Source of the DNA: Lachnospiraceae bacterium KH1T2 | GTDB taxonomy: Bacteria; Bacillota; Clostridia; Lachnospirales; Lachnospiraceae | Length of the DNA stretch: 64,000 nucleotides | Assembly (NCBI GenBank): GCA_900114405.1 | Contig: FOSY01000007.1 | Span: 53,429-117,428, forward strand | Direction of reading: 5' to 3' | The notes under the pieces: generated by a model | Told to the model about the DNA's origin: nothing | What the model saw: only the letters and a program-made list of their open reading frames with translations | Database searches by the model: none | In this document: positions 5,700-43,453 of the stretch, in pieces | Numbering within the stretch: position 1 is the first letter of the stretch | Layout: every line of letters starts with the position of its first letter | Position numbers and translations under genes: made by a program

Positions 5700-5706
5700 T
5701 TGTCAA

Positions 5707-5913: not shown

Positions 5914-5940
5914 GGAATTCCCCCTTTCATAAAATAAAAT

Positions 5941-8272: not shown

Positions 8273-8996
8273 GTTCTACGTCCTCTTTTATATTATTAGC
8301 CACTTTTATGGCTTCAATTTCCTCTTCTGATACTTCTATTACAATCGCGTCCCCATTCTTTTTCCTGTCATGGACAAAACTCAAGATTGCTGTTCCTGCC
8401 ATTGCAATCGCTATAACGATAAGTCCCACTTTATCATAAATTTTATATACTTCTTCAGACGCTGCAACTTTTACATATTTGGCCCAGATTTCACCCAAGA
8501 TTATAAAAAGATTGATACCTACAGTAGCTGCATACATTACGGATACAATGCCACTGGCAAATATGTTTCTTTTAACAGCTCCCTTAGTAGCATTGTAAGA
8601 ATGATTTGCAGACAGTATAGCACTAACTGATATCAGATAAATGATCGTAACTGCTAAAGCCTTCTGCCACGATGCACATTTTATACCACTGCTAGCGACC
8701 ACCATTGCAAGTTCTACAAAAATCATTGATGTCAGTAAAATCACTGGACCACTCGTCTGCGGGATATTTACAAGAACACCTATTAAGATTTCTATTAGAA
8801 GAATGAGCATAATAAAGCTAAGTCTACCTTCACCCGGAACAATATTTCTCAATGCTGGAAATGACCATGACAGAAAAATAGCTCCTATAAACCCTGATGC
8901 ATAAGGAAGCCAATTAAATACTGTCTTCATCAAAAAATAAACGATAGCTGCAGTAACCATTAATAATATAGAAATAATATCAACCACCTTATGCAC
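8262..8996 (-). CDS. Polytopic membrane protein, partner of the AlbA_2 gene
   Basis: 244 residues with seven or so hydrophobic segments (for example VVDIISILLMVTAAIVYFLM at the N-terminus and LIVIAIAMAGTAILSFV near residue 205) and a charged, acidic cytoplasmic tail (VSEEEIEAIKVANNIKEDVE). I do not recognise a family. It starts with GTG at 8996 behind AGAGGAGA. It overlaps the AlbA_2 gene by 11 bases, so the two form a tight two-gene unit: one membrane-embedded, one nucleic-acid-binding/ATPase-like. Confidence 0.75.
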   Translation of the reverse strand: MHKVVDIISILLMVTAAIVYFLMKTVFNWLPYASGFIGAIFLSWSFPALRNIVPGEGRLSFIMLILLIEILIGVLVNIPQTSGPVILLTSMIFVELAMVVASSGIKCASWQKALAVTIIYLISVSAILSANHSYNATKGAVKRNIFASGIVSVMYAATVGINLFIILGEIWAKYVKVAASEEVYKIYDKVGLIVIAIAMAGTAILSFVHDRKKNGDAIVIEVSEEEIEAIKVANNIKEDVEHEV

Positions 8997-9759: not shown

Positions 9760-10527
9760 TTAAATTGCGGCATCTTCTAGCCCTCCATTTTTCATTCTCT
9801 TAATATTCTTTGGATAGACCAACTTCCATTCTCCGGAATAAGCAGGCTCATTTACACCGGTTGCCAGATATCGTTTTGAATCTCCGCTCCTATCCTTACA
9901 TATCTTTATAAAATCATCGCATATGCCAAGTTCACTCTGATATTCACTAAAGATAAAACCTGTCTTCTGATATAAAAAGGCATTGTCATATAAGGCCAGA
10001 TACCTTAACATTTTTGTTTCATCAATACTGTTCACGGACACAACACATGAAAGCACCTCTTCCAGCCCGGCAATGAGATTCATATCCCTTATGGAATCTG
10101 TTATCGTCCGCTCCTTATCCGTAATCCTTACACCGCCACCAAATTCCGGAATAACTATACCTTCCTTCATCTGTTCTTTTACATAATGATAAGTGTACCC
10201 ATCAAATTCAAAATCGTGAAAACGTGTCTCTGAGCCAACATAAACCTCATAGAAAACCTGATCGGCAGTTCCATAATATTCAAATGCTGTATGATGTGAT
10301 ACATATGAAGATGGAGTGATAGCACTGGCAATTTGAAATCTGTTAGCCACTGGTCCGCCATTTTCACCGCTAAGACACGTATATAACCCATTTCGAATTT
10401 TCAGCACCATATTTTCCTTCAGAAGCTTTCCTAATGCAATCCTTGCTGTCCGTTCACTTGAATACAGACCATTAACCTCTTTCATGGAAAAAATTGGATA
10501 TTGTAACAGTTCATAATATAAGTTCAT
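9760..10527 (-). CDS. AbiEi-family (type IV toxin-antitoxin) antitoxin-like protein, no toxin nearby
   Basis: 255 residues. The N-terminal winged helix (MKEVNGLYSSERTARIALGK, then LVLKIRNGLY-like turn) followed by SYVSHHTAFEYYG is characteristic of AbiEi antitoxins, which repress their own operon and counter an AbiEii nucleotidyltransferase. The toxin gene should follow directly; instead there is an acetyltransferase remnant. Start at 10527 with GGAGCGAG. It may be an orphan left by loss of the toxin, or act as a stand-alone regulator. Confidence 0.7.
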   Translation of the reverse strand: MNLYYELLQYPIFSMKEVNGLYSSERTARIALGKLLKENMVLKIRNGLYTCLSGENGGPVANRFQIASAITPSSYVSHHTAFEYYGTADQVFYEVYVGSETRFHDFEFDGYTYHYVKEQMKEGIVIPEFGGGVRITDKERTITDSIRDMNLIAGLEEVLSCVVSVNSIDETKMLRYLALYDNAFLYQKTGFIFSEYQSELGICDDFIKICKDRSGDSKRYLATGVNEPAYSGEWKLVYPKNIKRMKNGGLEDAAI

Positions 10528-10828
10528 ATACTCGCTCCATGATGTTAATTATTTGTCGGATTTTACTCTATTATATGTCATTTCTATACATATTTTTAAC
10601 TTACCATCATAGAGTTGCCTTGTCAAGTTAAGTTTATGTATTTTTTTACCATGTTTGTTGTAACTATCATACAATATTTAAACCAAACAACATAGATTAT
10701 TCAATATTTCCGGTCAGATACAAATACCATTTTTCAAAATTGATTTGTTAAATGCTAATTTGGGACTTTTAAACTAGAAAGTTACCAAAAATGGCATGAA
10801 GTATTTCCTCATAGGACTACCCAAAAAC

Positions 10829-10867
10829 GAGTGCCATCGAGTGCCACCAAGTGCCACACGAGTGCCA
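10829..10867. repeat. Four short direct repeats in a long intergenic region
   Basis: The octamer (g/a)AGTGCCA-type unit occurs four times at 10829, 10839, 10849 and 10860, with a period of 10-11 bp, ending in a run of seven T. The surrounding region 10528-11004 is AT-rich and shows no gene; the repeat could be a binding-site cluster on one face of the helix. Confidence 0.5.
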
Positions 10868-12068: not shown

Positions 12069-12812
12069 ATGAAAAAAAATAAGATATTAAGCATTATTCT
12101 TTTAGCAGTTATAATTGGTATTGTAGGTGGGAAAATCACATCGAATCATCTATTTAGGTTGATTGATAATTATGATAATTCGAATAGCAAAAATGATATA
12201 GAAGAAACAGTTTCTGACTCTGAATGTATGAAGAAACCTACTCAGGAGCAGATTATTAAGAAAAGGAAAGAGTGTCTTGCAGGGATGTCAAATGAAGATA
12301 TTCAATTTGTAGTTGAGAATATAAAAAAAGCAAATCTTTCTATAGAGCATGAGTATATATATAATAATCTTTTTCAGAAACTTTCAAATCCGAATGATCC
12401 ATATTGGAATTATATTGACATAGAGGGTGAAATAATTATAGGTTATGCATTTGAAGATGATGTTGAATATGATGAAAAAATGGATATGACCTATGAAGAA
12501 TTTTGCGATAAGTATGGAAGTCCAGTGTACGATGACAATAAATATAATTATAAAAAGTGCATTGAAATAATAAATATTATTCAAGATAAAGTAAAATCAA
12601 ATGTTCTTGATGAAGATTTTGGTAAATTAAAAGTTTATGAGGAAAAAGCACATGAAACTCACAAGATAAGTTATATTGAAAAAGTCTATTATATATTACA
12701 TGATATGGATTATTATTTTTTTAGATATGATTCAGATGACTTGAGGAACTATCCAATAGATGATGGTATAATTGACCAATATTATGGCTACTTATCTGTA
12801 TTTGGTGATTGA
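12069..12812 (+). CDS. Membrane-anchored extracytoplasmic protein, unrecognised
   Basis: Start at ATG 12069 (KKNKILSIILLAVIIGIVGG, an N-terminal membrane anchor or uncleaved signal) because GGAGAG ends only a base before the alternative ATG at 12063. The rest (~215 residues) is hydrophilic and acidic with many Tyr/Asp, e.g. YDEKMDMTYEEFCDKYGSP. No known domain seen. Base composition is clearly more AT-rich than the housekeeping genes, and the gene is on the opposite strand to most neighbours, suggesting acquisition. Confidence 0.75.
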   Translation: MKKNKILSIILLAVIIGIVGGKITSNHLFRLIDNYDNSNSKNDIEETVSDSECMKKPTQEQIIKKRKECLAGMSNEDIQFVVENIKKANLSIEHEYIYNNLFQKLSNPNDPYWNYIDIEGEIIIGYAFEDDVEYDEKMDMTYEEFCDKYGSPVYDDNKYNYKKCIEIINIIQDKVKSNVLDEDFGKLKVYEEKAHETHKISYIEKVYYILHDMDYYFFRYDSDDLRNYPIDDGIIDQYYGYLSVFGD

Positions 12813-29962: not shown

Positions 29963-30952
29963 ATGAAAAAAGAAATAATCGATAAATTTAAGACAATAAC
30001 ATCAGAAGAAAAAAAGATAGTTTCAGAAGATCATACGATTTCAAGGGAACTGTACAGCTCCGAAGATGATTTCGTCGTAGACTCAGCCAAGCTTCTCGAA
30101 CGAGGTAAATACATAGCAATGCGCCCTCATACGCGTTTCGCCTACTTCCCGGAGCACAGGCACAACTACATCGAAATGCTTGTAATGCTGGAAGGAAGCC
30201 TCACTACTTCCATCGTTGACGGTGATACCATAAAGCTAAATGTCGGGGATATACTCTTAATGAACCGCCACGCAAGACATGAGATAATGCCATGCGGAGC
30301 AGACGACATCGCTGTAAATCTCATCATCCTTCCGGAATTTTTCTCAAGAAACAGCGTTTCATATGACAGGGAAAATGTACTTAGAGACTTCATCATCTCA
30401 TCACTTTCTGAAAAGAAAAGATATAGTGACTACATACTTTATCACACAAAAGGAGTACTTACAGTAGAGAACCTCATGGAAAATCTGCTGTGGACGCTCT
30501 CTGAGTCTCATAATGAAATGAATCAGATAGTTAATTCAACTATGGATCTGCTGCTTATGAATCTGGCGGCTCTTTCCGGTGATACACTTAAAGATATGGG
30601 CTCAAAGGCGCGAAATATAACTATCTCATCACTTGAATATATAGACCAAAATTTCAGAAATGGAACTTTGGAAGAGCTTGCAAGCAAAACCGGATACTCT
30701 ACTGCATACCTGAGCCGGCTCTTAAAGAGCAATACCGGCAAGAACTTCAAGCAGCTCCTGCAGCAGCGAAAGCTCCAGCAGTCAGCATACTTCCTCGAAA
30801 ATACAACTCTCACCACAGAACGAATCATCGAAGAGATCGGCTACGAAAACAGTGCCTACTTCTACCGGAAATTTGCTGAAAAGTACGGCTGCTCTCCACG
30901 AGACTACAGGAAACGCGCAGGAAAGGGACAGAAGATTGTGGTGAGGTCTTAA
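29963..30952 (+). CDS. AraC/XylS-family regulator with cupin domain, probable rhamnose-locus activator
   Basis: 329 residues. A cupin sensor domain at ~50-125 (RPHTRFAYFPEHRHNYIEML; GDILLMNRHARHEI) and a double helix-turn-helix AraC domain at the C-terminus (LEELASKTGYSTAYLSRLLK; IIEEIGYENSAYFYRKFAEK). Divergent orientation from rhaBAD mirrors RhaR/RhaS regulation in other bacteria, so control of the rha operon by L-rhamnose is a reasonable inference. The last codons overlap the start of a 33-bp tandem repeat. Confidence 0.88.
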   Translation: MKKEIIDKFKTITSEEKKIVSEDHTISRELYSSEDDFVVDSAKLLERGKYIAMRPHTRFAYFPEHRHNYIEMLVMLEGSLTTSIVDGDTIKLNVGDILLMNRHARHEIMPCGADDIAVNLIILPEFFSRNSVSYDRENVLRDFIISSLSEKKRYSDYILYHTKGVLTVENLMENLLWTLSESHNEMNQIVNSTMDLLLMNLAALSGDTLKDMGSKARNITISSLEYIDQNFRNGTLEELASKTGYSTAYLSRLLKSNTGKNFKQLLQQRKLQQSAYFLENTTLTTERIIEEIGYENSAYFYRKFAEKYGCSPRDYRKRAGKGQKIVVRS

Positions 30953-31059
30953 AAAGTGTAAGGTTGATGTAATTTTAGGTCTGAAAAAATGTAAGGTTGG
31001 TGCGATTTCAGGTCTTAAAAAATGTAAGGTTGGTGTGATTTTAGGTCTGAAAAAATGTA
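30945..31059. repeat. 33-bp tandem repeat, three full copies plus a partial one
   Basis: Copies begin at 30945, 30978 and 31011, with a partial fourth at 31044-31059. The core is GGTCTnAAAAAATGTAAGG followed by TTGGTGTGATTTTA-like sequence. Because 33 is a multiple of 3, the minus strand reads as an 11-residue repeat (LHFFRPKITPT-like). The first unit includes the last codons of the regulator gene. Confidence 0.85.
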
Positions 31060-31382
31060 AAAAAATCATTCTAGTGTTTTGCCCCATTCACATTTAATCT
31101 TATGTTATAGCTCGAATGAGCCTTATGTTGACGATTTCAAGATATGGAATTAGTTTAATTTAGAACGTGTCAGTACACTGATATGTAATGACCTTCTGTC
31201 AAGAGAAAACTTACAGGAAGTCACCACAAATTTATTTAATTATTTATGAAGGCATCTGGAAAGAGCCTCGGGGTATCAGTTCTCGGCATTGGCCACTCTG
31301 ATATACGTGGATTGGTTACCGACAGTTCAATGGTCCGCCGTGAGCTCTAGTAAGTTTGAAAAGATTATCAAGCGAATTTTCA
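31060..31382. other. Intergenic region at the old end of the CRISPR array
   Basis: No recognised gene. A 34-codon plus frame at 31246-31350 (MKASGKSLGVSVLGIGHSDI...) looks protein-like but has no RBS; it may be a remnant. No degenerate CRISPR repeat was found beyond 31383. Confidence 0.5.
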
Positions 31383-33976
31383 GATTTACCCCCACGTGCG
31401 TGGGGAATACTTAAGCTTTTTGCTTTTTGTATTATTCCCATTTCAGATTTACCCCCACATGCGTGGGGAATACGTTGTAGCACCAAGTTACAGGTATACG
31501 TACCATAGATTTACCCCCACGTGCGTGGGGAATACCTTACATTCTGGACGTTGTGCGAATTATCGTATAGATTTACCCCCACGTGTATGGGGAATACTGA
31601 GCCTGCCTTAAAAAGCACTCTATTACTACCAGATTTACCCCCACGTGCGTGGGGAATACAGCGGCTTAGAGGTAGTTTTTGCCAAAGACTTTCAGATTTA
31701 CCCCCACATGCGTGGGGAATACTCAGTCCTAACGCTGATTGAGCATCTGTAACCATGGATTTACCCCCACATGCGTGGGGAATACGGATGCTCTTCTTAA
31801 ACTGCGCCACGGTTTTGTTAGATTTACCCCCACATGCGTGGGGAATACTCTCGTGTGTTCCGCGACCAAGTGGGAAAATTTAGATTTACCCCCACATGCG
31901 TGGGGAATACCTTTGATGCAGGTGAAAACGAAGCTTTGTGTAACAGATTTACCCCCACGTGCGTGGGGAATACCAGTACGCTCTCACCCTCTGAGCCTGA
32001 TCTGACTAGATTTACCCCCACGTGCGTGGGGAATACGCCGGGTCGATCCACTTCTTAGGAGCTTTCACCCAGATTTACCCCCACGTGCGTGGGGAATACC
32101 GACAATCTCAATGGTGCAATTACGATTCTTAAAGATTTACCCCCACATGCGTGGGGAATACTTAGAATTGGCGGTCGGCATATACAACGATTTAGAGATT
32201 TACCCCCACATGCGTGGGGAATACTATCATCTTCTGACCTGCCGACTCCTACTGTTGCAGATTTACCCCCATGTGCGTGGGGAATACCTGTGGGCTGAGT
32301 ATATCGACGGAATCGCTGTGAGATTTACCCCCACGTGCGTGGGGAATACTTATGGGATAGAAATCTGTCCAGCTATGCCTTAGATTTACCCCCACGTACG
32401 TGGGGAATACCATAAACAGTCCTAGTTGGATACTGAGTCATTGTAGATTTACCCCCACGTGCGTGGGAAATACTCATCTTGATCAATTTCTGCTTGCAGC
32501 TCTCCGGAGATTTACCCCCACATGCGTGGGGAATACGCCCTGTATCAATTTTGAGCATGTCTGAGTTGTAAGATTTACCCCCACATGCGTGGGGAATACA
32601 CACACAAACCGCTCTTTGTTGAAGTAGTCAATAGATTTACCCCCACATGCGTGGGGAATACTTTTGCTTACATGCAGGATGACAAGCGTATTGTGAGATT
32701 TACCCCCACATGCGTGGGGAATACTATCAGGGTAATTAATCCTTGCACTGGTGTGCTTGGATTTACCCCCACCTGCGTGGGGAATACATTCTCACCAACC
32801 TATCGCGTCAAGGCTTGATTAAGATTTACCCCCACGTGCGTGGGGAATACCGATTTCGCTGAATCGAGGGCTTTCTTTGCCGCAGATTTACCCCCACGTG
32901 CGTGGGGAATACCGTTTACAGCTTTTTTTACTGCATTTTTCGTACTAGATTTACCCCCACGTGCGTGGGGAATACTTTTTTCTTTGCTTCTTTGGCTTTT
33001 TTGGTTTCAAGATTTACCCCCACGTGCGTGGGGAATACGAAGTGAATCATAAATGATAAACGTCCTGATTTGGGATTTACCCCCACGTGCGTGGGGAATA
33101 CTGATGTTTTTCTTGACGGTTATGTAGAGGAAGTAGATTTACCCCCACGTGCGTGGGGAATACAGCCGTCACTTGCTTTTTGTGCGCTCTCTCCTGCAGA
33201 TTTACCCCCACGTGCGTGGGGAATACATAAATAGGGGATTTTTTACAGTTTTCCACTTAGATTTACCCCCACGTGCGTGGGGAATACAGTATTTTAAACG
33301 TTAGCAGAATCTTGTAAAGTTGGATTTACCCCCACGTGCGTGGGGAATACTATTCGAGGAATACATGATAGAACTGGGAGGCTAGATTTACCCCCACGTG
33401 CGTGGGGAATACGAGCATTTTCAAAAATTCCGTCTGAAATCTGACCGGATTTACCCCCACGTGCGTGGGGAATACTTTGGTGTTGTCTGGCTTTTTCCAA
33501 TTTTTCCTCCGATTTACCCCCACGTGCGTGGGGAATACCCTGTGGTATGACGGATTACTCCTTCCACATTTAGGATTTACCCCCACGTGCGTGGGGAATA
33601 CTTCATTTTTACCTCCTAAGTGCTGCGCCCGCGTTAGATTTACCCCCACGTGCGTGGGGAATACCTCCGTCGAAGCCGTTTATGATTGTTTCTACTGCAG
33701 ATTTACCCCCACGTGCGTGGGGAATACCTTTTGAGGCGCTCGCCTTTCAACTTTGTTGTAAGATTTACCCCCACGTGCGTGGGGAATACTTCAACTGCCT
33801 TACTCAAAAATTTTTCACAATCAGATTTACCCCCACGTGCGTGGGGAATACCTGCGAAGTACGACTTCTGCCAGCATTTTCAAGCAGATTTACCCCCACG
33901 TGCGTGGGGAATACCGCTCCGGCTTCCGCTGCGTAATTAAACTCAGCGGATTTACCCCCACGTGCGTGGGGAATAC
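31383..33976 (-). CRISPR. Type I-E CRISPR array, 42 repeats and 41 spacers
   Basis: 28-bp repeats (29 if the usually conserved preceding base is counted) start every 60-64 bp, mostly 62-63, leaving spacers of 32-36, mostly 34-35 bp. Read on the minus strand the repeat has TTCCCCAC-GCAC-GTGGGG and an 8-nt tail GTAAATCT, the same arrangement as the E. coli I-E repeat, so crRNAs are made from the minus strand and the leader is at the high-coordinate end next to casE. The 19 leader-proximal repeats (from 32823) are identical; most variants (ACATG, GTGTA, ATGTG, GTACG, CCTG, GGGAAA forms) lie in the older half. Confidence 0.98.
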
Positions 33977-34052
33977 CCTTCACTAAATCCGATAAAATAG
34001 GGATTTGTTATATGCAAATCCCTATTTAGGGTATATTATATCACCTTTAACA
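33977..34052 (-). promoter_or_regulatory. CRISPR leader with extended -10 and 13-bp inverted repeat
   Basis: Between casE and the first repeat. On the minus strand TG-a-TATAAT (34035-34043) is an extended -10 box. Downstream, AAATAGGGATTTG (33995-34007 on +) and its exact complement (34015-34027) form a perfect 13-bp stem with a 7-base loop, 18 bp before the first repeat. It may end the cas transcript, or be a landmark for spacer integration. Confidence 0.7.
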
Positions 34053-34670
34053 TCAAACCTGTATCATTAACATTCCACAACCATAAGCTTTTTCTCGACC
34101 TATGCCATTACAAAATGCTTCCCAAAATTTTTCTTCATCTGTTATTTTTAGTGCACCTGAATATGTGACCGCTTTAGCATAAATTTTGTGAGATTTATCT
34201 GTTTTTTTATCTTTCTTCATTCCCCATACCGTAAAGTCAGAAGTCTGACTCTCAACCAAAACTTCTGCTCCGGAACGCTCCATCACACGCTTAATCCACT
34301 CATCTCTCTCTCTCTCAGATGATAGAAAAATACGCTTTCCGCCATCGATCAACTTTTTCGTTGGATTACACGTACATTTAAAATGTACAGCCATACCTGT
34401 CCCACAAATTTTTTTCATCGCATCAATACAAATGGTAGCCGGAGTACTTATCCAATATGAACAATTTTCAAATTTGGGTTCTACAGCACTTTGAACATAA
34501 ACTTTTATGCCATCTACAGCATATAATATCTTTAACGTCTGTCTTGCATTTTCGGCTTGAATATGTCCAAATCCTTTTTCAAGAATCAGCTTATGCATCC
34601 ATTCACAATTTGACATATTATGAAGAACAGCTTTGTTTTGTATATTTAATTCTAATTTTGTTAAATACAT
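34053..34670 (-). CDS. casE: CRISPR-associated Cas6e/CasE, crRNA endonuclease
   Basis: 205 residues. Two ferredoxin-like halves; C-terminal glycine-rich segment GIGREKAYGCGMLMIQV is the family signature. Cuts the pre-crRNA at the base of the repeat hairpin and stays bound to it as a Cascade subunit. Last gene of the casA-E operon; GAGAGG upstream. Confidence 0.93.
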   Translation of the reverse strand: MYLTKLELNIQNKAVLHNMSNCEWMHKLILEKGFGHIQAENARQTLKILYAVDGIKVYVQSAVEPKFENCSYWISTPATICIDAMKKICGTGMAVHFKCTCNPTKKLIDGGKRIFLSSERERDEWIKRVMERSGAEVLVESQTSDFTVWGMKKDKKTDKSHKIYAKAVTYSGALKITDEEKFWEAFCNGIGREKAYGCGMLMIQV

Positions 34671-34688
34671 AAATATGCCTCTCTAATA

Positions 34689-35174
34689 CTATTCAATTTC
34701 AGGAATAAGTGGTTCTGTAGGCGGACAATTTTTTCTTCCTAGATATGGAACCCAAACTGGATCAAGCATTGCATCATATACATCTTTCATCAGATCATCA
34801 GGACCCTCTATATGAACCGTAAATGATGCATCATTTATGTAGGATTTATGCAATATGATTCCATATGAATCGCCAGTTCCTCCATTCGCTGCATTTAACT
34901 TGCCGCCATCTTCCTTTCTCACAACCTGAAAATCTGTAAGTATTGATCCTGATTTTCTGTTCCCATTATCATCTTCGTTTATATCATATGTTATTTTTAA
35001 CACCGATAATAGCTGCTCAAGCCTATCATCTCCCCTTGGTATACCCATACAACATCCAATCAAACCTACAATTCCTCTAGCTGTCGGATAATACGATGTT
35101 CCTCTCCAAGTATATTCAGATGGTACTCCCCAGGCTTGAAATGCACCTTCTAAAACAATTTTTATTTTCATCAT
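34689..35174 (-). CDS. casD: CRISPR-associated Cas5e/CasD, short form
   Basis: 161 residues. Has the N-terminal KIVLEGAFQAWGVPSEYTWR, PTARGIVGLIGCCMGIPR, ILTDFQVVRKEDG and LGRKNCPPTEPL motifs of Cas5e, which caps the 5' handle of the crRNA in Cascade. Typical members are about 220-250 residues; here the protein stops ~12 residues after LGRKNCPP, where E. coli CasD continues for roughly 60 more. No frameshift is evident downstream. ATGA overlap with casC. Confidence 0.9.
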   Translation of the reverse strand: MMKIKIVLEGAFQAWGVPSEYTWRGTSYYPTARGIVGLIGCCMGIPRGDDRLEQLLSVLKITYDINEDDNGNRKSGSILTDFQVVRKEDGGKLNAANGGTGDSYGIILHKSYINDASFTVHIEGPDDLMKDVYDAMLDPVWVPYLGRKNCPPTEPLIPEIE

Positions 35175-36358
35175 TCATTCATCCACTCATTAAGCTTTTG
35201 CTCAAGTTCTTTTATACTGTTCACTACAGTAACATTTTCAGGCGCTTTAACACTTTCATCCTCACAATACCACAGTGCATTTGTTATTCCTAAATCAGCT
35301 TTTTCGTTTGTGCAATTTATATAATCAGCAAGTTTTTTAGCACTCTTTTCAGCAATATTTCTATTACACGGTTCCGCAAATGCCTTCATTCTGTTCAAAG
35401 GACGCTTTTTACTCTTTAGTTCCACATAAATAACCTCTGGAAGAACATGCGCCTCCATTGTACTCTGTCTCGCTGTTGGATCTGTATATGCCATTACTTC
35501 CACCATATTTGAAGGCAATGCTTTCACTATTTCTTCCATGTTTTCACAATCCTTCAAATTTTCTGCAAACTGCTCTAAATCTGCATTTGCATGAATATAA
35601 TAGCATGCAGAATTATAGTCAATATCTCCAAGCATTTCACCACCGACATCTTCAATGGTTTCTCCTTTTACCAGATCATCGCAAGCCACAAAATAGTCAT
35701 TTTCCTTGACCGCAGCATTAGTTGATAATGCCTGTGCCACCTGCATTGCGCCTTCTACCGGACGAAGCATGTTGTCAGTTACCATACGCCCAAATGCTGC
35801 AACATCAATATTCATCGGATGAACGCACTTACGCATTTCCTTCTGAATATTGTCAATTTTTATTGTCTTCAGATTTTTGGATTTAGGCTCTTCCAAATCA
35901 TCATAAATTCTTTTACATATCTCAGCAATTTTATCAAGTTCCTCCACTGAATAAAATGACAATGCAGCAGTCTTTACTGGCTTACCTTCGTCTATAGCCT
36001 GATCAGCTTTACTTTTCTTAGATGATTTTTCATCAACCTTTTCACCAGAAAGGATTTTCTTAAAACTGATTACATCCTCTTCCGGCACTCCATTCTCAAC
36101 CAATTTTTTTCCAACATATTCTGGCATTCTCTTAGTACGTATTCCAATTTCATCAAAAACATCTTCGAAAGTTTCAGAAAGCCTCCATGAACGTTTAATA
36201 CACTGACTTGAAATTCTATTCCTAAGCGTGCCATTGTACATTCCCGTTTTCTGCTCACCTGCATCATCGCGGTTTAATGCTGATGACGGATATAGCTTCA
36301 ACATATGAAACTCTGCAAGTTTCTTTCCATTTAAGAACTGATACTTTGAATTACTCAT
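35171..36358 (-). CDS. casC: CRISPR-associated Cas7e/CasC, Cascade backbone
   Basis: 395 residues from ATG 36358 (GAGGAGAAG upstream); the alternative GTG at 36373 overlaps casB. Contains LAEFHMLKLYPSSALNRDDA, RISSQCIKRSWR and DIDYNSACYYIHANADLEQF, all typical of Cas7e. Six copies coat the crRNA spacer; their thumbs flip out every sixth nucleotide. Confidence 0.95.
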   Translation of the reverse strand: MSNSKYQFLNGKKLAEFHMLKLYPSSALNRDDAGEQKTGMYNGTLRNRISSQCIKRSWRLSETFEDVFDEIGIRTKRMPEYVGKKLVENGVPEEDVISFKKILSGEKVDEKSSKKSKADQAIDEGKPVKTAALSFYSVEELDKIAEICKRIYDDLEEPKSKNLKTIKIDNIQKEMRKCVHPMNIDVAAFGRMVTDNMLRPVEGAMQVAQALSTNAAVKENDYFVACDDLVKGETIEDVGGEMLGDIDYNSACYYIHANADLEQFAENLKDCENMEEIVKALPSNMVEVMAYTDPTARQSTMEAHVLPEVIYVELKSKKRPLNRMKAFAEPCNRNIAEKSAKKLADYINCTNEKADLGITNALWYCEDESVKAPENVTVVNSIKELEQKLNEWMNE

Positions 36359-36369
36359 TTTTCTTCTCC

Positions 36370-36867
36370 TCACTCTTCATTATTTACATATATTGTACGT
36401 GCCCAACGTCGCTGAACATCTTTTTCATTGCTTCCAATATTATGAATATCCCAATATAACTGATCACAATCCGGTATTTTATTAGAAGTAATTTTTAGCG
36501 TATAATTCATTAACTTTGCAAGTTTTGGAATAAAAAATTCAGCTTCAGTATTTGACATTAATGCTGAAATTCTTCTATCATAACCTTCCAAAGATATTTT
36601 AGGATTTTTTCTTCCTTCACTAATTAATATGTCAGGTTCTAATGTAACGCCCTCAATTTTTTCGAATAGGCATCTTACACACAAAGCAGCAAAAAAAGCA
36701 TCTTCATCAACTGTATACTTTTTCCCGTTTTTACTTTCAATTTCACTTGGCACCACCTTATAAAACGGTATAATAGCTTTTGGAGCGTCTTTTATTAATT
36801 TACCTGCACAATGAGCAAACAACCTTTTTTCCTCATGTGCAAGTTTTTCATATGCTTCCTGTATCAT
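36370..36867 (-). CDS. casB: CRISPR-associated Cse2/CasB, Cascade small subunit
   Basis: 165 residues, all-helical. EAEFFIPKLAKLMNYTL and QRRWARTIYVNNEE resemble the Cse2 family. Overlaps casA by 20 bases and is followed by casC, as in other I-E operons. Two copies stabilise the displaced strand and the backbone. Confidence 0.88.
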   Translation of the reverse strand: MIQEAYEKLAHEEKRLFAHCAGKLIKDAPKAIIPFYKVVPSEIESKNGKKYTVDEDAFFAALCVRCLFEKIEGVTLEPDILISEGRKNPKISLEGYDRRISALMSNTEAEFFIPKLAKLMNYTLKITSNKIPDCDQLYWDIHNIGSNEKDVQRRWARTIYVNNEE

Positions 36868-38548
36868 TCTTATCCTTTCCCTCCTTCTTCCAATATTTCT
36901 TTAACGTTCCGTAAAAAATATGAAGACAGCCATTCTTACCATGTATTTGCCTGATTATTTTCACCAACATATTCCATGAATTCGTGTTCTTCTCTTCTTT
37001 TTCGCATATTTCTTTAACACTCTTCGTTAAATATTCAAATAATGCTTTATCTGCCGTTTTTTCAAAAGAAGAAGAATCTTCATGATACATTCTTATCACA
37101 TGATTTAAGAAGCTATCATCGCCATCAAATAAAAATTGATGAATCTTGACCCAATACTCTTGCAGTGCATCATCTCTATAATGTCCTGAAAATTTATCCT
37201 TATTATCCAGAAGCGCCGATATTTTAAGCTTGTCCCACATCTTAGAAATTTCTTCTACTATTTCCATTCTTGTAGTTAAATATTCACCCAAATATGAGTC
37301 TTCCAAATATTCTTTCGGAATTTGTACTGTATCATCATAGAACATAGCACTGTATCCTGCATTCTGGGTCATAGGTATCATTGCAAGAGAAGAAATATTC
37401 TCATAATAATCTGTAGCATCTGCACTTTTTTTAATTGGTCTAAGGACATCCGGCATTAAATGCCAGCTTTCTTCTCTAGATGCAGTCAAATTTCCAATAT
37501 TTCTCCACATTTCTCGATCCCCTTTAGCCGGCATCTGAAAAATTTCTCCCGACTTATGATTTCTCAATCTAACAGCAAAAGGATCATGCCACACGTTTTC
37601 ATTCGAATTGGTATAACCATTACTTATATAGCATTCATAAACTTTTCCGTTTTCAATGACCGGTACAATTCTTCTTGCCTGAAAAGCAAGACCTGACACA
37701 AAAGAGACTGAAGTTACTATATCACCACGTTTTCCTGCTTTAGGATTAGGTTCTGCATCGGCATTCCAAAAAGCTGGTGGATCATTTAATTTTAAATTAT
37801 TCTGTAGTTCTCCTTGACTGCGCATACACATAACAAGTGTATGAAACAAATTGTCACATTCTGGCCAAAAGAAAACCGGTTCAGCCGCTGCCATTGAACT
37901 TCCTGCATTTATTCCCATCGAGCCATACGCAGCTGTATATTTAGGTTTGCCATCTTTCCCCACACCGTCTATATAGCAGTTATCACCCGTTTTACTATTC
38001 GCTCCCTTTAACATGTTTCCAGTCGGGAATAAATTAAACGCTAATGCAGCCCTCAAAAATTGAGGCAGCGTATCACCTTCAAAATCTTCCTCTCTCTGGG
38101 CAACTATGTGAATAGGATTATTGCCATGAGGCAGTTCCAAATGCAAATACGCTGCAGATAATTTCACTCCCTCTGTATCAACTTGCGGATTATAGTTAAA
38201 GCAAAAAAAAGATCTTTGAGAATCACCCAAAACAAATGAAGCTCCATTCTTCTCTTCACATTCTTTAACATAATTCTCAATACGTTCAATTTCAAATGAT
38301 CCCGCATCATATAACTTTTGCCGTTCAATACGTCTATCCAGTTGATATACATCCGTAATGAACGCTGTCAAAAACCGTAGTATCGCAATCTTTTCATATG
38401 GCTTAGAATTCGATATTGTTTTAATCTTTTCTGCATTTCTAAAGCATTCAATGATTCCAACATCTTTTATCTTTCCATCCAAAAATACAACTGGAATCCA
38501 CGGATCTTTTAATACATTCAGTGTACTAACATACTGTTGGTCACACAT
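36848..38548 (-). CDS. casA: CRISPR-associated Cse1/Cas8e/CasA, PAM-sensing large subunit
   Basis: 566 residues. NVLKDPWIPVVFLDGKIKDV at the N-terminus, LPQFLRAALAFNLFPTGNML and an LSAAYLHLELPHGNNPIHI loop region place it in Cas8e. It reads the PAM and recruits Cas3. RBS AAAGGAGTG precedes the start. Its own sigma-A-type promoter lies 60-90 bases upstream, and the crRNA-like RNA gene lies just before that promoter. Confidence 0.94.
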   Translation of the reverse strand: MCDQQYVSTLNVLKDPWIPVVFLDGKIKDVGIIECFRNAEKIKTISNSKPYEKIAILRFLTAFITDVYQLDRRIERQKLYDAGSFEIERIENYVKECEEKNGASFVLGDSQRSFFCFNYNPQVDTEGVKLSAAYLHLELPHGNNPIHIVAQREEDFEGDTLPQFLRAALAFNLFPTGNMLKGANSKTGDNCYIDGVGKDGKPKYTAAYGSMGINAGSSMAAAEPVFFWPECDNLFHTLVMCMRSQGELQNNLKLNDPPAFWNADAEPNPKAGKRGDIVTSVSFVSGLAFQARRIVPVIENGKVYECYISNGYTNSNENVWHDPFAVRLRNHKSGEIFQMPAKGDREMWRNIGNLTASREESWHLMPDVLRPIKKSADATDYYENISSLAMIPMTQNAGYSAMFYDDTVQIPKEYLEDSYLGEYLTTRMEIVEEISKMWDKLKISALLDNKDKFSGHYRDDALQEYWVKIHQFLFDGDDSFLNHVIRMYHEDSSSFEKTADKALFEYLTKSVKEICEKEEKNTNSWNMLVKIIRQIHGKNGCLHIFYGTLKKYWKKEGKDKNDTGSI

Positions 38549-38609
38549 TTATAATTACACTCCTTTCATTAAAATATTTTAATAGTCTTTTTATCGACCC
38601 CATACAAAC

Positions 38610-38638
38610 AATATAATACTATAAACGCAATCAGTCAA
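38610..38638 (-). promoter_or_regulatory. casA promoter
   Basis: Minus strand TTGACT (38638-38633), 17 bases, TATATT (38615-38610). The -35 box falls inside the region (38625-38656) that lines up with the pseudo-spacer of the neighbouring crRNA-like RNA: the 17 bases ATTGAATAGAAAATGAT at 38656-38640 match it at 15 positions. Confidence 0.8.
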
Positions 38639-38674
38639 TATCATTTTCTATTCAATGTCATTTTTTATAAATGT

Positions 38675-38716
38675 ATAAAATAAAGATATCCTATTCTAGG
38701 CATAGAATAGGATATC
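38675..38716 (-). terminator. Intrinsic terminator of the crRNA-like RNA
   Basis: GATATCCTATTCT pairs perfectly with AGAATAGGATATC (13 bp, 6-base loop, 38685-38716), followed on the minus strand by TTTATTTTAT. On the plus strand no T-run follows, so it works only for minus transcription. It overlaps the last four bases of the second degenerate repeat. Confidence 0.88.
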
Positions 38717-38824
38717 TACCCCCACCAATGTGAGGAAATGAAAAATTTTCATGTAATCATATTCTAATCAATTGAGCTACCCCCACCAACGTCGGGAACT
38801 ATAATTAATGATTAAATGAATTTT
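38685..38824 (-). ncRNA. crRNA-like RNA with two degenerate repeats (CreR-type candidate)
   Basis: Between cas2 and casA. Repeat A (38774-38801) and repeat B (38713-38740) are degenerate copies of the array repeat, both keeping GTGGGGGTA and starts 61 bp apart. Repeat B can still form the 6-bp stem (CCTCAC/GTGGGG, one U-G pair, loop ATTG); repeat A has one G-G mismatch (CCCGAC/GTGGGG). The 33-nt pseudo-spacer is 38741-38773. A promoter upstream and a terminator downstream make it an independent unit of about 140 nt. Cas6e could process it to a guide with handle GTAGCTCA. The guide's first 17 nt match the casA promoter. Regulatory RNAs of this plan (CreR/CreA) are known from other type I systems. 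Confidence 0.8.
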
Positions 38825-38829
38825 CTTCG

Positions 38830-38859
38830 ATTATAACATACTAACTGAAAGAATTTGAA
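38830..38859 (-). promoter_or_regulatory. Promoter of the crRNA-like RNA
   Basis: Minus strand TG-t-TATAAT (38838-38830) is a consensus extended -10 box, just past the cas2 stop; a weak -35 (TTCAAA) lies 18 bases upstream, inside cas2. Start of transcription expected near 38823, 22 bases before repeat A. Confidence 0.75.
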
Positions 38860-39134
38860 TATGTTTTTATCAAAGATATACCATCATAATCTTCTATACT
38901 GCGCTTAGATTCGCCAACCACCTTAATCGAATATCCTTGTTCAGAATTATCACTTCTGACTAATATCGCATTTCCTTCTTTTATCTCATCAGAAACTTTT
39001 TTCCACAACAATTCTGTAACCTTAGCATTCAGCTGACCAACAAAAACTCCAGCTTTTAATTCAAGCATATATCTTGTAAGTTCTCCGCGAAGTGATTCAC
39101 TTACTTTCTCCATCACCATTACAACCATCGGCAT
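38841..39134 (-). CDS. cas2: CRISPR-associated Cas2e
   Basis: Up to 97 residues; two in-frame ATGs at 39134 and 39128 are both possible. MVVMVMEKVSESLRGELTRY and GVFVGQLNAKVTELLWKKV are the Cas2e signatures. Overlaps cas1 by 38 bases. Forms the Cas1-Cas2 integrase that adds spacers. Confidence 0.94.
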   Translation of the reverse strand: MPMVVMVMEKVSESLRGELTRYMLELKAGVFVGQLNAKVTELLWKKVSDEIKEGNAILVRSDNSEQGYSIKVVGESKRSIEDYDGISLIKTYSNSFS

Positions 39135-40071
39135 TATCCTTATCTAATAGTTTAGAAAGATTCCAACTTCCTGTCTTTACTGTCTCCTCTCCACCATTCC
39201 ACAGTTCTGAATCAGGCTCATCTGTTTGATCTTCATCGACATCAAATAACGTTAATAAATCCTTCGGAATTCTCTTCATAAGCTTTTTTGTATGAAAATA
39301 CTTACGACACTGTTTTCTAACTAAAACCTCTATATCCTCGCCCGTTTCTTCTGCAATTTTAACAGCCTCAAATGATGCAGGTATTGTTGTTTCCGCTTTA
39401 TATAAATCTGCAATATCATAGGCAAAAGACTCACTTCTTCCAGTATGAATAAATCCCAATCCTGTAGAAAATCCCATAGAAACAATCACACTAGAACATA
39501 TTGCATACAGTAACTTATTGCTATGAATAAGCGCTTTATCTAATGGTGACAATTCATTCCATTCCTTATTTTTCCCAAGATCACGCGTTTTCCATGCTAC
39601 GCCTGTCTGTTTGGCAGCCAACGCATAGGCTTTTTTCATTCTGACTCCTTCAATTCCTCTCAATTGATTCAGATTCAATCCGGCTGTCACTTTTTCACCA
39701 AACCTCATTGTGTACATTTTGTATACAACTTTCATATGAAGTTCCTGATTCATACATAGCCTTGCTTGCAGAATCAGATTCTTTCCATTTCTCGTTTCAC
39801 CTCTACCATATGCATAAAAGCGAGTATCACCTTCCCCACACCAAACAACCGAACACCCACAGTCAGCGATTGCTTTGATCGCCGCATGAGTTATCACCGT
39901 CCCCGGTCCTAATAGCAGACAAGTTATATTTGCAATTGGAATAGATGTTTTCCCTCCATCCTTATCCCATTTTGCAATAGCCATAGCATCTTGTTCTATA
40001 CGACAGCGTTCAACATAGATAAAACTTATTGATTCTTTAATTTTAGGTAATTGCTTCAGATTTTTAGGCAT
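39097..40071 (-). CDS. cas1: CRISPR-associated Cas1e integrase
   Basis: 324 residues. ISFIYVERCRIEQDAMAIAK at the N-terminus; the C-terminal helical domain has IRGIEGVRMK-like and SMGFSTGLGFIHTGRSESFAYDIADLYK-region residues (Glu, His, Asp of the metal site). One base separates it from cas3. The adaptation genes sit between cas3 and casA here, not at the end of the operon as in E. coli. Confidence 0.95.
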   Translation of the reverse strand: MPKNLKQLPKIKESISFIYVERCRIEQDAMAIAKWDKDGGKTSIPIANITCLLLGPGTVITHAAIKAIADCGCSVVWCGEGDTRFYAYGRGETRNGKNLILQARLCMNQELHMKVVYKMYTMRFGEKVTAGLNLNQLRGIEGVRMKKAYALAAKQTGVAWKTRDLGKNKEWNELSPLDKALIHSNKLLYAICSSVIVSMGFSTGLGFIHTGRSESFAYDIADLYKAETTIPASFEAVKIAEETGEDIEVLVRKQCRKYFHTKKLMKRIPKDLLTLFDVDEDQTDEPDSELWNGGEETVKTGSWNLSKLLDKDNADGCNGDGESK

Positions 40072-40072
40072 T

Positions 40073-42589
40073 TTATCCTCGCTTAACTATTGCGCCAAAT
40101 TCAGAATCATATATTATTTCAGTTTCTTCTGATACTTTATATTCATCTGTATCACTGACCGCTATAAACATTCCTTTAAGTGCGCCATTTTGCACGCAAT
40201 CTTTATAAGATATATTCCTTAAATTTAATGAAACAGAGTTTTCCAACATCTCATTCTGATTTTTCTTAAGTTGCGGTTTCTCCATAAATCTTTCATACAA
40301 CTGAGATGAACACAGTACAGTTCTTACCGATTTCTCGCCCAATCTTGTTGCAACCTGAAGATTATCAGACTCATCTTCTGACAGAAAAATCGAATCCTTA
40401 TCTGCAAGATAATACAGACTTTCATCAGGTTCCTCTATTACACTTCCCTCTGCCTGATTTGCTTTTAATAATTCTTCTGTAAATTTCTCAATATATTCCA
40501 AGCTTTCTTCAGAAGAGTCATATACATATGCGATAGCATCACGCAAATCATCCGGAACTACTAACACATTCTTATTTCTTAAATATTCTTCTGTCTTATG
40601 CAAAATGTACGGTACATATATTTTCTTTATCGAAGACTTTTCTATGTCACCCACCAGTACATAACATTCTGCTTCAGTTACATGTATCGGACGTTTTAAC
40701 TCATGTCTCCACTCTCTTCCCAATCGTTGCACTAACAAGTCAATAGGGCATATCTGAGTCATCAAAATATCAAAATCCACATCAAGACTTTGTTCAACGA
40801 CCTGTGTACATACCAAAATCGAACATTTTGGTCTTTGACCTTTGCCCGAATATTCTTCTAAACACCTTCTTTCAATATTCGCTCTATCTTTTGCTTTAAA
40901 TCTGGCATGATAAAGCATCAGTTCAATCTTGCTATCCGTCCCAACCTTCTCTTTTAATATTTTATATACTTGCTGTGCGTCATTTACTGTATTTAACATC
41001 AAGCACAGATTTCCACCACCTTTCACTAATTCTATTGCTTTATCAGCCGTCTTTTCTATATCATTTAAGATATCCAACAAATGAATACTATACTGAGAAG
41101 TTCTAAATGGAACACAATGCTTTTCTTCGTACATATTATCTTTCACATACGTCAATAATGGATAATCCTTTTCCAGTTCTTCTTCAATTTCTGCACCAGT
41201 ATATGCTTCAATAAAATTTCTTTTCTTCTCATTGGGAAGTGTAGCAGATAATAAAATAACAGGAATATTCATCACTCTGCACCATTCTAAAAGTCTATCA
41301 AGAATTCTAGACATATAGGCATCATAAGCATGAACCTCATCAATAATTATTACTTTATTAGTAAGTCCCAACATTCTTAATTGCCTGAACCGAATATTCA
41401 TGACGGCCATCATTATTTGATCTACCGTACCGACAGCAAACTGTGATAATAAAGCTCTCCTAGTCGGTCTCAACCATTCTTGTCCAATTTCATCCTCAGA
41501 GCCATATTTAAAATTTTCATTATTTTCTTCTTCAATAACTGACCACGCCATTCCATGCGTAAGCCTAAAATTCGGAATTTCAAATTTGCCAAATATATTA
41601 TTTAATCTTTCCCACATTTGATTTGCAGTTGCAGATGTCGGTAACGCAAAATAAAAGCCGTCCTTTTTATATTCTTTTGCAATTTTAACTGCTAAGTAAA
41701 CTGCCGCTTCAGTTTTACCGGCTCCAGGGCTATCTTCTATAATTGTAAAAATAGGTGACTCATCAGCTGCTTCATTAACTAAAGTCTGCATCGGTCTCAT
41801 ATGATTATTTTCCCAACCATATAATTCATTCAAATTTTTAGGGTCAGGAAGTTTGCTATTTACAAATCCAATAGAATAGATATTTTTCTTAGCAGTTTTT
41901 TTGGCATTATCAAAATATTCTCGATCATCCAAACTATCTTCTACACTAAAATTCTCATTCGAGGCTATCCAGTCAGATAATATTAAGATACCATTTAATG
42001 CTTCACAAAATACCGACCAATCTTCGCATTCTTCAGGAAATTCGATTGGGCAAAACAAAGAATATACTATATTTTCTAAACAGTCTTGCATATATTCATA
42101 TTCTTTTTTTAAGTTTGGAGCCACCTGATTAAATGAACCAGCCTTTTGATGGTGATCTGAAATTACCGAAGTTATATTATCAACAAAATTTTCATCAAGC
42201 TCTCTTGTATCCTCCCAAATGCGGTTCAAAACTTTCGAAGAATATTTTTCATGTCGAAAAGAGATTTTAGTTGTTTCTTTATTGACAACATCTTTAATTA
42301 TTTTTCGAACCTCATCAGGCAAACGCATAAAAACATCTGTATTAGACTGAAAATCAGGATGTGCCTTTCCTATATCATGACATGCAACAAGATATCCAAC
42401 AACATGTAATAACATCTCATGTTCCATATTACATTTTTCGCTCATCAGTTCCAAAAGTGATTTATTTACAACGCTTAAATATTCAATAGCACATACCCCT
42501 GCATCAATCATATGATGCAACAACGATTTATACGGATCAGCTTTTCCCCATAAAGTTACAGCTGCTTTATACAGTTTTTCTTCTTCCAT
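40073..42589 (-). CDS. cas3: CRISPR-associated Cas3 helicase-nuclease
   Basis: 838 residues. N-terminal HD nuclease (CHDIGKAHPDF ~70, DHHQKA ~165), then SF2 helicase: Walker A DSPGAGKTEAA (~289), IIDEVHAYD (~416), LSATLP, and QRLGREWRH (~624). Recruited by Cascade to degrade target DNA. All motifs intact. Confidence 0.95.
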   Translation of the reverse strand: MEEEKLYKAAVTLWGKADPYKSLLHHMIDAGVCAIEYLSVVNKSLLELMSEKCNMEHEMLLHVVGYLVACHDIGKAHPDFQSNTDVFMRLPDEVRKIIKDVVNKETTKISFRHEKYSSKVLNRIWEDTRELDENFVDNITSVISDHHQKAGSFNQVAPNLKKEYEYMQDCLENIVYSLFCPIEFPEECEDWSVFCEALNGILILSDWIASNENFSVEDSLDDREYFDNAKKTAKKNIYSIGFVNSKLPDPKNLNELYGWENNHMRPMQTLVNEAADESPIFTIIEDSPGAGKTEAAVYLAVKIAKEYKKDGFYFALPTSATANQMWERLNNIFGKFEIPNFRLTHGMAWSVIEEENNENFKYGSEDEIGQEWLRPTRRALLSQFAVGTVDQIMMAVMNIRFRQLRMLGLTNKVIIIDEVHAYDAYMSRILDRLLEWCRVMNIPVILLSATLPNEKKRNFIEAYTGAEIEEELEKDYPLLTYVKDNMYEEKHCVPFRTSQYSIHLLDILNDIEKTADKAIELVKGGGNLCLMLNTVNDAQQVYKILKEKVGTDSKIELMLYHARFKAKDRANIERRCLEEYSGKGQRPKCSILVCTQVVEQSLDVDFDILMTQICPIDLLVQRLGREWRHELKRPIHVTEAECYVLVGDIEKSSIKKIYVPYILHKTEEYLRNKNVLVVPDDLRDAIAYVYDSSEESLEYIEKFTEELLKANQAEGSVIEEPDESLYYLADKDSIFLSEDESDNLQVATRLGEKSVRTVLCSSQLYERFMEKPQLKKNQNEMLENSVSLNLRNISYKDCVQNGALKGMFIAVSDTDEYKVSEETEIIYDSEFGAIVKRG

Positions 42590-42714
42590 CTTTACACCTT
42601 TTCAATGATTTTGAATTATACTCCAAGCATAATGAAAATTTCACAACATTCATCTACCACGAAACTCATTTTATATTTTATTGCATTGTGGCATTACTGA
42701 CATACTTAAATTTT

Positions 42715-42742
42715 ATTATACACATTTTCATGTTATCTTATT
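42715..42742 (-). promoter_or_regulatory. Candidate cas3 promoter with shared cas motif
   Basis: Minus strand TATAAT at 42720-42715, about 125 bases before cas3. The bases just upstream (42724-42742, ATTTTCATGTTATCTTATT on +) match 17 of 19 positions of the pseudo-spacer of the crRNA-like RNA. A second TATAAT (42620-42615) lies nearer the gene, so the promoter in use is uncertain. Confidence 0.5.
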
Positions 42743-42819
42743 AAACGCTTTTACAACGATCAGCATTTTACAAATTTTAGATTACACTATAAGTATTTAC
42801 TATATACTTTTCATCTTTT

Positions 42820-42870
42820 TTTACAAAAATATCGCGTGACTGTAACTTAACCAAATCATCGCGATATTTT
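42820..42870 (-). terminator. Terminator of the 43.9-42.9 kb gene pair
   Basis: AAAATATCGCG pairs with CGCGATATTTT (42826-42870), with T-rich sequence after it on the minus strand. Confidence 0.75.
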
Positions 42871-42886
42871 CCAAATATATACAATT

Positions 42887-43453
42887 TTACAGCAAACCAC
42901 CACCGGTCATTCCCTCTGAAACAGCTCCCACGTCTACGCTTTCAGCAGTTTCCGCTGTCACTGTTCCGTATTGCTCTATTTCATCACTCATAGGCTCTGT
43001 TTCATCTTGATTCTCTTTATTGCGTTTCACCATCATCGCAAGTTCCTCTGCAAGTCTGTACAATTCCGGATCATATTGCATAAGCAGATTTCTTTCTTCC
43101 GAGGAAACTTTAACTCCATTCGCAATCTTCCTTGCAATTTTCAAGCACTTTGCCTCCAGTTTAGCCTTTTTTGCCTCATTATCTGCCGCTTTTCTTCTTG
43201 CCAGCAAGTTCGCATACTCATTCTGCACATTCATAAGGTCATTTATATATGCTTTATATGCACTCAAAGCTTTACCCTTAGCATCATACGACAGATCTAA
43301 TGAATTGATCTCTTTTGCATAATCCTTAGAATTTGCAGGGTCTTCAAGCATCTTCTTGCGTATTTCAGCACGTTTTTTACAAATGACACTCTGATCAGTA
43401 TGTATTTCTCTTAATTTCATGTTTAATTGCTTTATCACATCAGCCTTAATCAT
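42887..43453 (-). CDS. Coiled-coil protein of unknown function
   Basis: 188 residues, almost wholly helical and charged (KKRAEIRKKMLEDPANSKDY; NEAKKAKLEAKCLKIARKIA) with an acidic, Gly-ended tail (VSEGMTGGGLL). No signal peptide or membrane helix. Co-translated (ATGA) with the gene upstream. Not recognised; no evidence that it belongs to the CRISPR system next door. Confidence 0.75.
   Translation of the reverse strand: MIKADVIKQLNMKLREIHTDQSVICKKRAEIRKKMLEDPANSKDYAKEINSLDLSYDAKGKALSAYKAYINDLMNVQNEYANLLARRKAADNEAKKAKLEAKCLKIARKIANGVKVSSEERNLLMQYDPELYRLAEELAMMVKRNKENQDETEPMSDEIEQYGTVTAETAESVDVGAVSEGMTGGGLL

Follow-up and report, generated by a model that had tools for sequence, protein, structure and literature searches.

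A lone spacer and its possible target in a type I-E locus

Between the cas2 and casA genes of a type I-E CRISPR-Cas locus in Lachnospiraceae bacterium KH1T2 lies a single spacer that is separate from the CRISPR array and that resembles a part of the casA promoter region. The question raised by this arrangement is whether the spacer serves to guide Cascade to the promoter of its own operon. To answer it we analysed the window, which is the whole stretch of 64,000 nucleotides, drawn from an assembly of 3.87 Mb in 62 contigs. Judging from sequence comparisons, we consider it highly probable that the spacer and its two flanking repeats form a mini-CRISPR of the CreR kind, whose RNA would guide type I-E Cascade to the casA promoter and repress the Cascade operon without cutting.

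The locus is complete and is carried on the minus strand in the order cas3, cas1e, cas2e, casA, casB, casC, cas5e, cas6e and array. Profile searches recognise the HD and helicase domains of cas3 (40073-42589), and the adaptation genes cas1e (39097-40071) and cas2e (38841-39134) match TIGR03638 and TIGR01873, respectively. The first gene of the Cascade operon is casA (cse1; 36848-38548), whose product of 566 amino acids scores above the PF09481 cut-off (E 1e-31) and below the cut-off of the NCBIfam model TIGR02547. It is followed by casB/cas11e (36370-36867; 165 amino acids), which is recognised weakly, by the PADLOC Cas11e model (E 6e-5), and which gave no Pfam or NCBIfam match at E 0.001. The remaining effector genes are casC/cas7e (35171-36373; PF09344, E 3e-78, and TIGR01869), cas5e (34689-35174; TIGR01868) and cas6e (34053-34670; PF08798 and TIGR01907). 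All members of the type I-E gene set (cas3, casA through casE, cas1e, cas2e and an array) are present, and the effector encoded beside the mini-CRISPR is complete for its subtype.

Repeat detection places the array, with 42 repeats and 41 spacers, at 31383-33976 on the minus strand, beginning 76 bases past cas6e. Most of its spacers (26 of 41) are 34 nucleotides long, and the lone spacer has 32. In E. coli the usual spacer length is 32, two shorter than these 34-nucleotide spacers. Just past the far end of the array, at 30944-31060, a direct repeat occurs three times at a spacing of 33 bases (AGGTCT-AAAAA-TGTAAGGTTG...). Rfam matched nothing in 30800-43000, and no tRNA was found in the window.

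Anatomy of the mini-CRISPR

The gap between cas2 and casA measures 292 bases and holds the mini-CRISPR, all elements of which were placed on the minus strand by alignment. Pseudo-repeat 1 (psiR1; 38773-38801) precedes the 32-nucleotide pseudo-spacer, or guide (38741-38772), and pseudo-repeat 2 (psiR2; 38712-38740) follows it; each is identical to the array repeat at 19 of 29 positions. A lone spacer is thus enclosed by two degenerate repeats near cas genes and outside the array, which is the layout that defines a CreR. The predicted 5' handle consists of the last 8 bases of psiR1, GTAGCTCA, ending at 38773. With this end point it lines up with the canonical repeat, whose handle is GTAAATCT, which bears out the 29-nucleotide repeat register in which the first-pass annotation had read the spacer. 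The predicted crRNA-like RNA would carry the 5' handle GUAGCUCA, starting at 38780 on the minus strand.

Both repeats are predicted to fold. The hairpin of psiR2 (-8.6 kcal/mol) is identical in shape to that of the canonical repeat (-11.7 kcal/mol), and psiR1 yields a hairpin of -9.3 kcal/mol. Processing of psiR1 by Cas6e is uncertain because its stem contains a G.G mismatch. In a fold of the lone strand the pseudo-spacer is predicted to pair with its own leader, which counts against its reading as a guide.

Upstream, at 38830-38859 on the minus strand, a match to the promoter consensus (TTCAAA, 18 nucleotides, TATAAT, with a TG before the -10 box that makes it an extended -10 element) overlaps the end of cas2. 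This promoter-like site is only suggestive, because such sites are no commoner in the region than in shuffled sequences (4 found versus 4.8). Downstream, beginning within the handle of psiR2, a terminator-like hairpin of 15 pairs with a T-rich tail is found at 38684-38717 on the minus strand, where shuffles lead one to expect 0.1 (1 found). This hairpin would insulate casA from the mini-CRISPR.

A repeat identity of only 19 in 29 is what one might see if the element were a decayed mini-array, or if its likeness to the casA promoter region were born of chance or duplication between two AT-rich stretches and had no function. The retention of the predicted hairpins and of the terminator argues against such decay; the remaining evidence on this alternative lies in the match itself.

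The match between guide and target

The guide, ATTGATTAGAATATGAT (read from 38772 on the minus strand), agrees with the target, ATTGAATAGAAAATGAT (38656-38640, minus strand), at bases 1-5, 7-11 and 13-17, and the only mismatches within the first 18 bases fall at 6, 12 and 18. From base 18 to base 32 agreement is confined to positions 26, 28 and 32, which at 3 of 15 is the chance level. Our alignment reproduces in full what the first-pass annotation had reported here, namely the spacing of the mismatches and the end of similarity after base 18. The guide is therefore partly complementary to a cas promoter, including the seed, and lacks a full-length match, as expected of a CreR.

How surprising the match is depends on whether the mismatch positions are taken into account. 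With positions 6 and 12 ignored, a 15 of 15 match did not arise in any of 20,000 dinucleotide shuffles of the 168-nucleotide casA leader, both strands considered. The plain match of 15 in 17 is only modestly rare because the sequence is AT-rich, and it was reached in 13 of 5,000 shuffles of the leader. For two mismatches among 17 positions to land on exactly 6 and 12 is, by arithmetic, a 1 in 136 event. An assembly-wide search for the masked 17-mer gave exact matches at the guide and the target only, with 28 other sites at two mismatches, and a reversed control pattern occurs at 14 sites. Within 4 kb on either side, 6 of 500 sampled noncoding 17-mers (250 positions, both strands) find a 15 of 17 partner, a count that possibly includes the true pair. 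By comparison, the best of the 41 array spacers reaches no more than 12 of 17 on the 168-nucleotide leader, which favours a specific pairing of the lone guide.

The AT-richness of both sequences, the 13 of 5,000 shuffles and the 6 of 500 noncoding 17-mers are each in keeping with a functionless likeness. Against this stand the restriction of mismatches within bases 1-18 to 6, 12 and 18, a fitting PAM, and the identity of the partner, which is no arbitrary site but the casA promoter. We regard the functionless explanation as unlikely. For the CreR reading, the placement of the mismatches and the PAM add the remaining weight beyond the plain match.

The casA promoter

On the minus strand, a promoter-like site identified by consensus match (38610-38638) combines TTGACT (38638-38633), a spacing of 17 nucleotides and TATATT (38615-38610). 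The -10-like box ends at 38610, a ribosome-binding-site-like AAAGGAG lies at 38560-38566, and the casA ATG is at 38548. By alignment, the full 32-nucleotide protospacer (38625-38656) overlaps the -35 box, and it is preceded by the PAM GAC (38657-38659). The first-pass annotation had the protospacer covering the -35 box; its positions were correct, with the nuance that the paired part (38640-38656; bases 1-17 with 15 matches and mismatches at 6 and 12) stops one base short of that box, which lies instead under the unpaired, PAM-distal half.

Two other functions could be proposed for a guide aimed at this site. One is that the guide is an antitoxin of the CreTA or CrePA kind, repressing a toxin instead of cas genes, and arrangements of this sort do occur beside type I-E loci elsewhere in the family (loci L021, L023 and L017, described below). 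In CreTA and CrePA, the target promoter drives a toxin gene. Here it runs directly into casA, with no ORF between the -10-like box and the casA ATG when ORFs of at least 80 amino acids are considered, and we give this alternative very little credence. The other is that Cascade bound at the site acts otherwise than by repression, either aiding RNA polymerase at the casA promoter or serving as a roadblock that stops transcription arriving from cas3-cas1-cas2. The target lies between the terminator-like hairpin and the -35-like box, immediately before the latter, and this location would be compatible with either role. However, a Cascade complex spread over 32 bases would be expected to cover the -35 box, and the CreR, CreA and CreP cases are all repression in those parts of the literature that were available to us. 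Activation or roadblocking is, in our judgement, highly improbable as well.

The PAM and the possibility of self-targeting

To learn which PAM the system uses, protospacers of the array spacers were sought. Genomes of the genus were compared with the joined spacers, and 13 of 48, the host's own included, scored at E 0.05 or below, with at most eight candidates scored per genome; this search gave a full match in genome G027 and a seed-length match in genome G040. Viral contigs were searched with pieces of 6 of the 41 spacers, which yielded an exact match for spacer 34 only, plus two inexact ones. In a phage collection 15 records scored at E 1 or below, one of which was followed.

Two protospacers are exact. 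Spacer 7 matches at 34 of 34 positions in G027, which belongs to the same genus as the window's host, with the PAM GAC, and spacer 34 matches at 33 of 33 positions in a viral contig, with the PAM GAT. The target at casA is flanked by GAC, in keeping with these two exact protospacers (n=2) and with the flanking PAM expected of a CreR target. The inexact matches do not fit: spacer 31 (30 of 34, in three records) is diverged in the seed and flanked by CCT, and the diverged match of spacer 41 (26 of 34) is flanked by ACC. Two weaker AT-rich matches, of spacers 16 and 17 (27 of 34 and 25 of 34), flanked by ATA and AAA, were set aside. For spacers 7 and 34, the base that follows the 28-nucleotide repeat in the array is the same as the last PAM base. 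T follows 34 of the 42 repeats, C follows 7 and G a single one, such that 41 of 42 are followed by T or C.

The exact protospacer of spacer 7 lies at 1501-1536 of locus L035 (contig C72 of G027), about 70 bases past the end of an ORF. From its translation, read by eye, we take this ORF to be a putative IS605-type TnpB. This proximity suggests that the array may also sample transposons.

Given an intact PAM and seed, and Cas3, Cas1 and Cas2 encoded nearby, one could instead take the guide for a normal spacer that happens to target its own genome and sets off interference or primed adaptation at the cas genes. Priming from imperfect targets is possible in E. coli, according to the available part of one study (PMC5904413). 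The same part reports that E. coli Cascade reaches maximal binding with 18 bp or fewer, whereas robust interference and priming require at least 18-25 bp (PMC5904413), and the PAM-distal half of the present pair agrees only at the chance level. A guide that cut its own chromosome would be lethal and would presumably not be kept. In addition, none of the 41 array spacers exceeds 12 of 17 on the casA leader, in a comparison that covers the 168-nucleotide leader only. We therefore hold self-targeting to be very unlikely. The first-pass proposal that binding would block transcription without triggering Cas3 is sound by the E. coli precedent, in which a short seed suffices for binding.

Relatives of the locus

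Relatives of the locus were sought at several taxonomic levels. Searching with the single CasA protein gave 3 of 48 genomes in the genus, including the host's own, and the others aligned at 29-31% over short stretches; in a family sample the count was 11 of 397, own included, with the best at 40-41% over part of the protein. Seven CasA homologues (P0001-P0007), from a comparison that scored the 7,992 candidates with the most shared words, are 50-88% identical and are known as proteins only. An alignment of these seven with the CasA of the window (A1) was used for wider searches, which, own included, gave 3 of 392 genomes in the order sample, 1 of 391 in the class and 5 of 255 among relatives. 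No close DNA relative was confirmed in genome contigs (Cas1 and A1 searches) or viral contigs (protein searches).

For a survey of type I-E loci, genomes were taken from the CasA searches of the genus, family and order samples and from a PF09344 search (which hit 15 of the 397 genomes in the family sample, own included), with G490 left out. The repeat scan covered 20 loci in 19 genomes, the window included; L025, L068 and L070 are cut by contig ends, and L028, a 3-kb fragment, was left out. A generic repeat was used for the loci that have no array (L019, L073, L025 and L027). Some pseudo-repeats of L017, L018 and L023 were missed by the scan and seen by eye. A masked all-against-all comparison of whole loci returned many chance 15 of 15 pairs in coding DNA, and the survey was therefore confined to pairs whose guide is preceded by a degenerate repeat.

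Guide-like mini-CRISPRs were recognised in 6 of the 19 genomes (the window, L017, L018, L021, L023 and L026), three of them fully only by eye, and in four of the six the guide matches a site within its locus at 14 or more of 17 positions. The full pattern of mismatches at 6, 12 and 18 is seen in the window and in one other locus.

That other locus is L021 (genome G157), where a minus-strand element at 10579-10838 includes a guide that matches the leader of a 174-amino-acid ORF with mismatches within bases 1-18 only at 6, 12 and 18. The unmasked match was reached in 3 of 5,000 shuffles. Its target is flanked by AAT, and the base after the repeat is T in 10 of 12 counted, one being that of the mini-CRISPR itself. 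The ORF (10054-10578) lies upstream of cas3 and codes for an LPD3-like protein that scores below the Pfam cut-off. From its sequence features, this arrangement looks CrePA-like.

In L023 (genome G130), a promoter region is present twice, and one and the same minus-strand guide matches both copies (4929-5145 and 6763-6955). One copy precedes an Abi_2 gene (5088-6047; PF07751, E 1e-19) and is flanked by AAC, and the other precedes casA (6904-8565) and is flanked by AAT; the base after the array repeat is C in 9 of 9. Guide and targets differ at 6 and agree at 12; from 16 on they differ again (16 and 17). These 14 of 17 matches are weak alone, being reached in 65 and 64 of 5,000 shuffles. A single RNA could couple the level of Cascade to an abortive-infection gene in this genome. 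The mini-CRISPR itself also has a second, decayed copy, at 6763-6823.

The two-repeat mini-CRISPR of L017 (genome G219; 3870-4045) sits behind a perfect TTGACA-17-TATAAT site, read by eye. Its guide agrees at 16 of 17 positions with the beginning of its own transcript, where a possible 9-codon ORF also starts. The flank is AAG, and the pairing includes matches at 6 and 12 and a mismatch at 15; the base after the array repeat is G in 3 of 4. This arrangement is CreTA-like in its predicted layout. A lone degenerate repeat is also present in this locus, at 3474.

The two remaining elements gave no convincing in-locus target. L018 (genome G076; 4262-4345) has two degenerate repeats around a short spacer directly before cas3, with a best match of 13 of 17, and L026 (genome G001, of the window's genus; 12337-12425) has a two-repeat mini-array between cas1 and cas2, with a best match of 12 of 17. 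That two of six mini-CRISPRs have no such target is again compatible with a functionless likeness in the window, whereas the recurrence of the pattern in G157 is not readily explained in that manner. Genus-level relatives were sought for two of these loci, and each was found in its own genome only (L021 in 1 of 11 genomes, L023 in 1 of 1).

When the four guide-target pairs are pooled, positions that would be read agree in 57 of 60 cases and every-sixth positions in 3 of 8 (Fisher 2.7e-4), a figure biased by the inclusion of L021, which was found with the mask. The same test on bases 1-17 of the window and L021 only gives 2.2e-5, the share of L021 again being biased by its masked discovery. The first-pass statement that every sixth base goes unread is not borne out by every pair: the window and L021 fit fully, and the other two of the four pairs, L023 and L017, do not have mismatches at both 6 and 12. 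Moreover, the portion of PMC5904413 available to us describes every sixth crRNA base as flipped out and yet reports that position 6 still contributed to binding for some crRNAs, and thus 'unread' is not absolute. The broader proposal of autorepression is supported by the anatomy taken together, which comprises the repeats, the promoter-like site, the terminator-like hairpin, the GAY PAM, a target abutting the -35 box and the independent loci, and which is consistent with the predicted function.

Comparison with known systems

The CreR idea is said to come from a report by Liu et al. in 2023 in Cell Host Microbe on cas-regulating RNAs, in which such elements are reportedly called mini-CRISPRs. 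The element in the window resembles a CreR in that it would produce a crRNA-like RNA partly complementary to a cas promoter. It differs in that pairing reaches base 17 with mismatches on the every-sixth bases, and in that the guide sits between cas3-cas1-cas2 and the Cascade operon, such that cas3-cas1-cas2 would stay outside the loop. From the accessible sections of the sources, CreR has been described for types I-B, I-E and V-A (PMC13131331), type I-E therefore being among the described types, and its repression is relieved by crRNAs and anti-CRISPRs (PMC12737573).

A second precedent is CreA of type I-B, for which, in the sections available, mutation showed that bases 1-5 and 7-11 pair and that changes at 6 and 12 are tolerated (Cheng et al. 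2021, PMC8501985). CreA likewise has two divergent repeats around one spacer, is leaderless and has a PAM-flanked target (PMC8501985, same sections). As described there, however, the CreA that was tested is a type I-B element that represses a toxin RNA, whereas the target promoter in the window leads to casA and no toxin is seen.

Like the window, CrePA combines a CRISPR effector with a crRNA-like guide aimed at a nearby gene. Its target is a protein toxin, and L021 and L023 look closer to it than the window does. In CrePA, reportedly described by Shu et al. in 2025, it is this nearby gene that the effector and guide are said to repress. In a further system, SpyCas9, the guide is reportedly made from the long tracrRNA. 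SpyCas9 keeps down its own expression, an effect that anti-CRISPRs undo (Workman et al., as cited in the available part of PMC13131331), and this parallels the autorepression proposed here, although SpyCas9 is a type II, single-protein effector.

Since CreR is known for type I-E and the pairing of CreA has been shown by mutation, the case in the window belongs to a known kind. Our literature search found no open paper on this locus, which is a weak negative given that the main CreR paper lay outside that search. As far as seen, and judged without the main CreR paper, what appears to be new is that the every-sixth pattern is so long and so clean, and that neighbours reuse such guides for other genes.

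Proposed mechanism and implications

With these precedents in mind, the CreR reading of the window can be set out as follows. A transcript from the mini-CRISPR would be processed by Cas6e into a crRNA-like RNA and loaded into Cascade, as is expected from type I-E biology. The complex would bind the casA promoter through the PAM and seed, with every sixth crRNA base left unread as type I-E biology again predicts. An R-loop of about 17 bp would probably form and arrest near base 17, and RNA polymerase would be shut out. Because this falls below the at least 18-25 bp needed for interference or priming, the chromosome would be spared from Cas3. As for CreR, the repression would be lifted when array crRNAs or anti-CRISPR proteins consume or inactivate Cascade. 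Given that casA-casB-casC-cas5-cas6 and the array lie downstream, the loop would set the level of Cascade and perhaps, by read-through, that of the array, and the upstream cas3-cas1-cas2 genes would remain outside it.

The locus may offer a clean natural example in which to study how type I-E systems regulate themselves by RNA guides, and in which, within 18 bases, guide and target differ only at crRNA positions that are predicted to be unread; evolution appears to have done a mutational scan. Guides that resemble CreR or CreA easily escape detection, since their repeats decay, and the pairing pattern may provide a sequence-only signature for finding more of them. For the organism, the model predicts that Cascade would be under feedback control from which Cas3 and the adaptation genes are exempt.

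More tentatively, and with doubt outweighing conviction, we suggest that type I-E Cascade may have been recruited repeatedly in this family as a gene repressor, that in the cleanest pairs selection keeps the read bases and lets the flipped-out bases drift, and that a 5-1-5-1-5 signature identifies such pairs. The targets would be casA in the window, an LPD3-like gene in G157, the guide's own transcript in G219, and both casA and an Abi_2 gene, by means of duplicated promoters, in G130. If this is true, one RNA in G130 would tie the level of Cascade to the release of a suicide gene.
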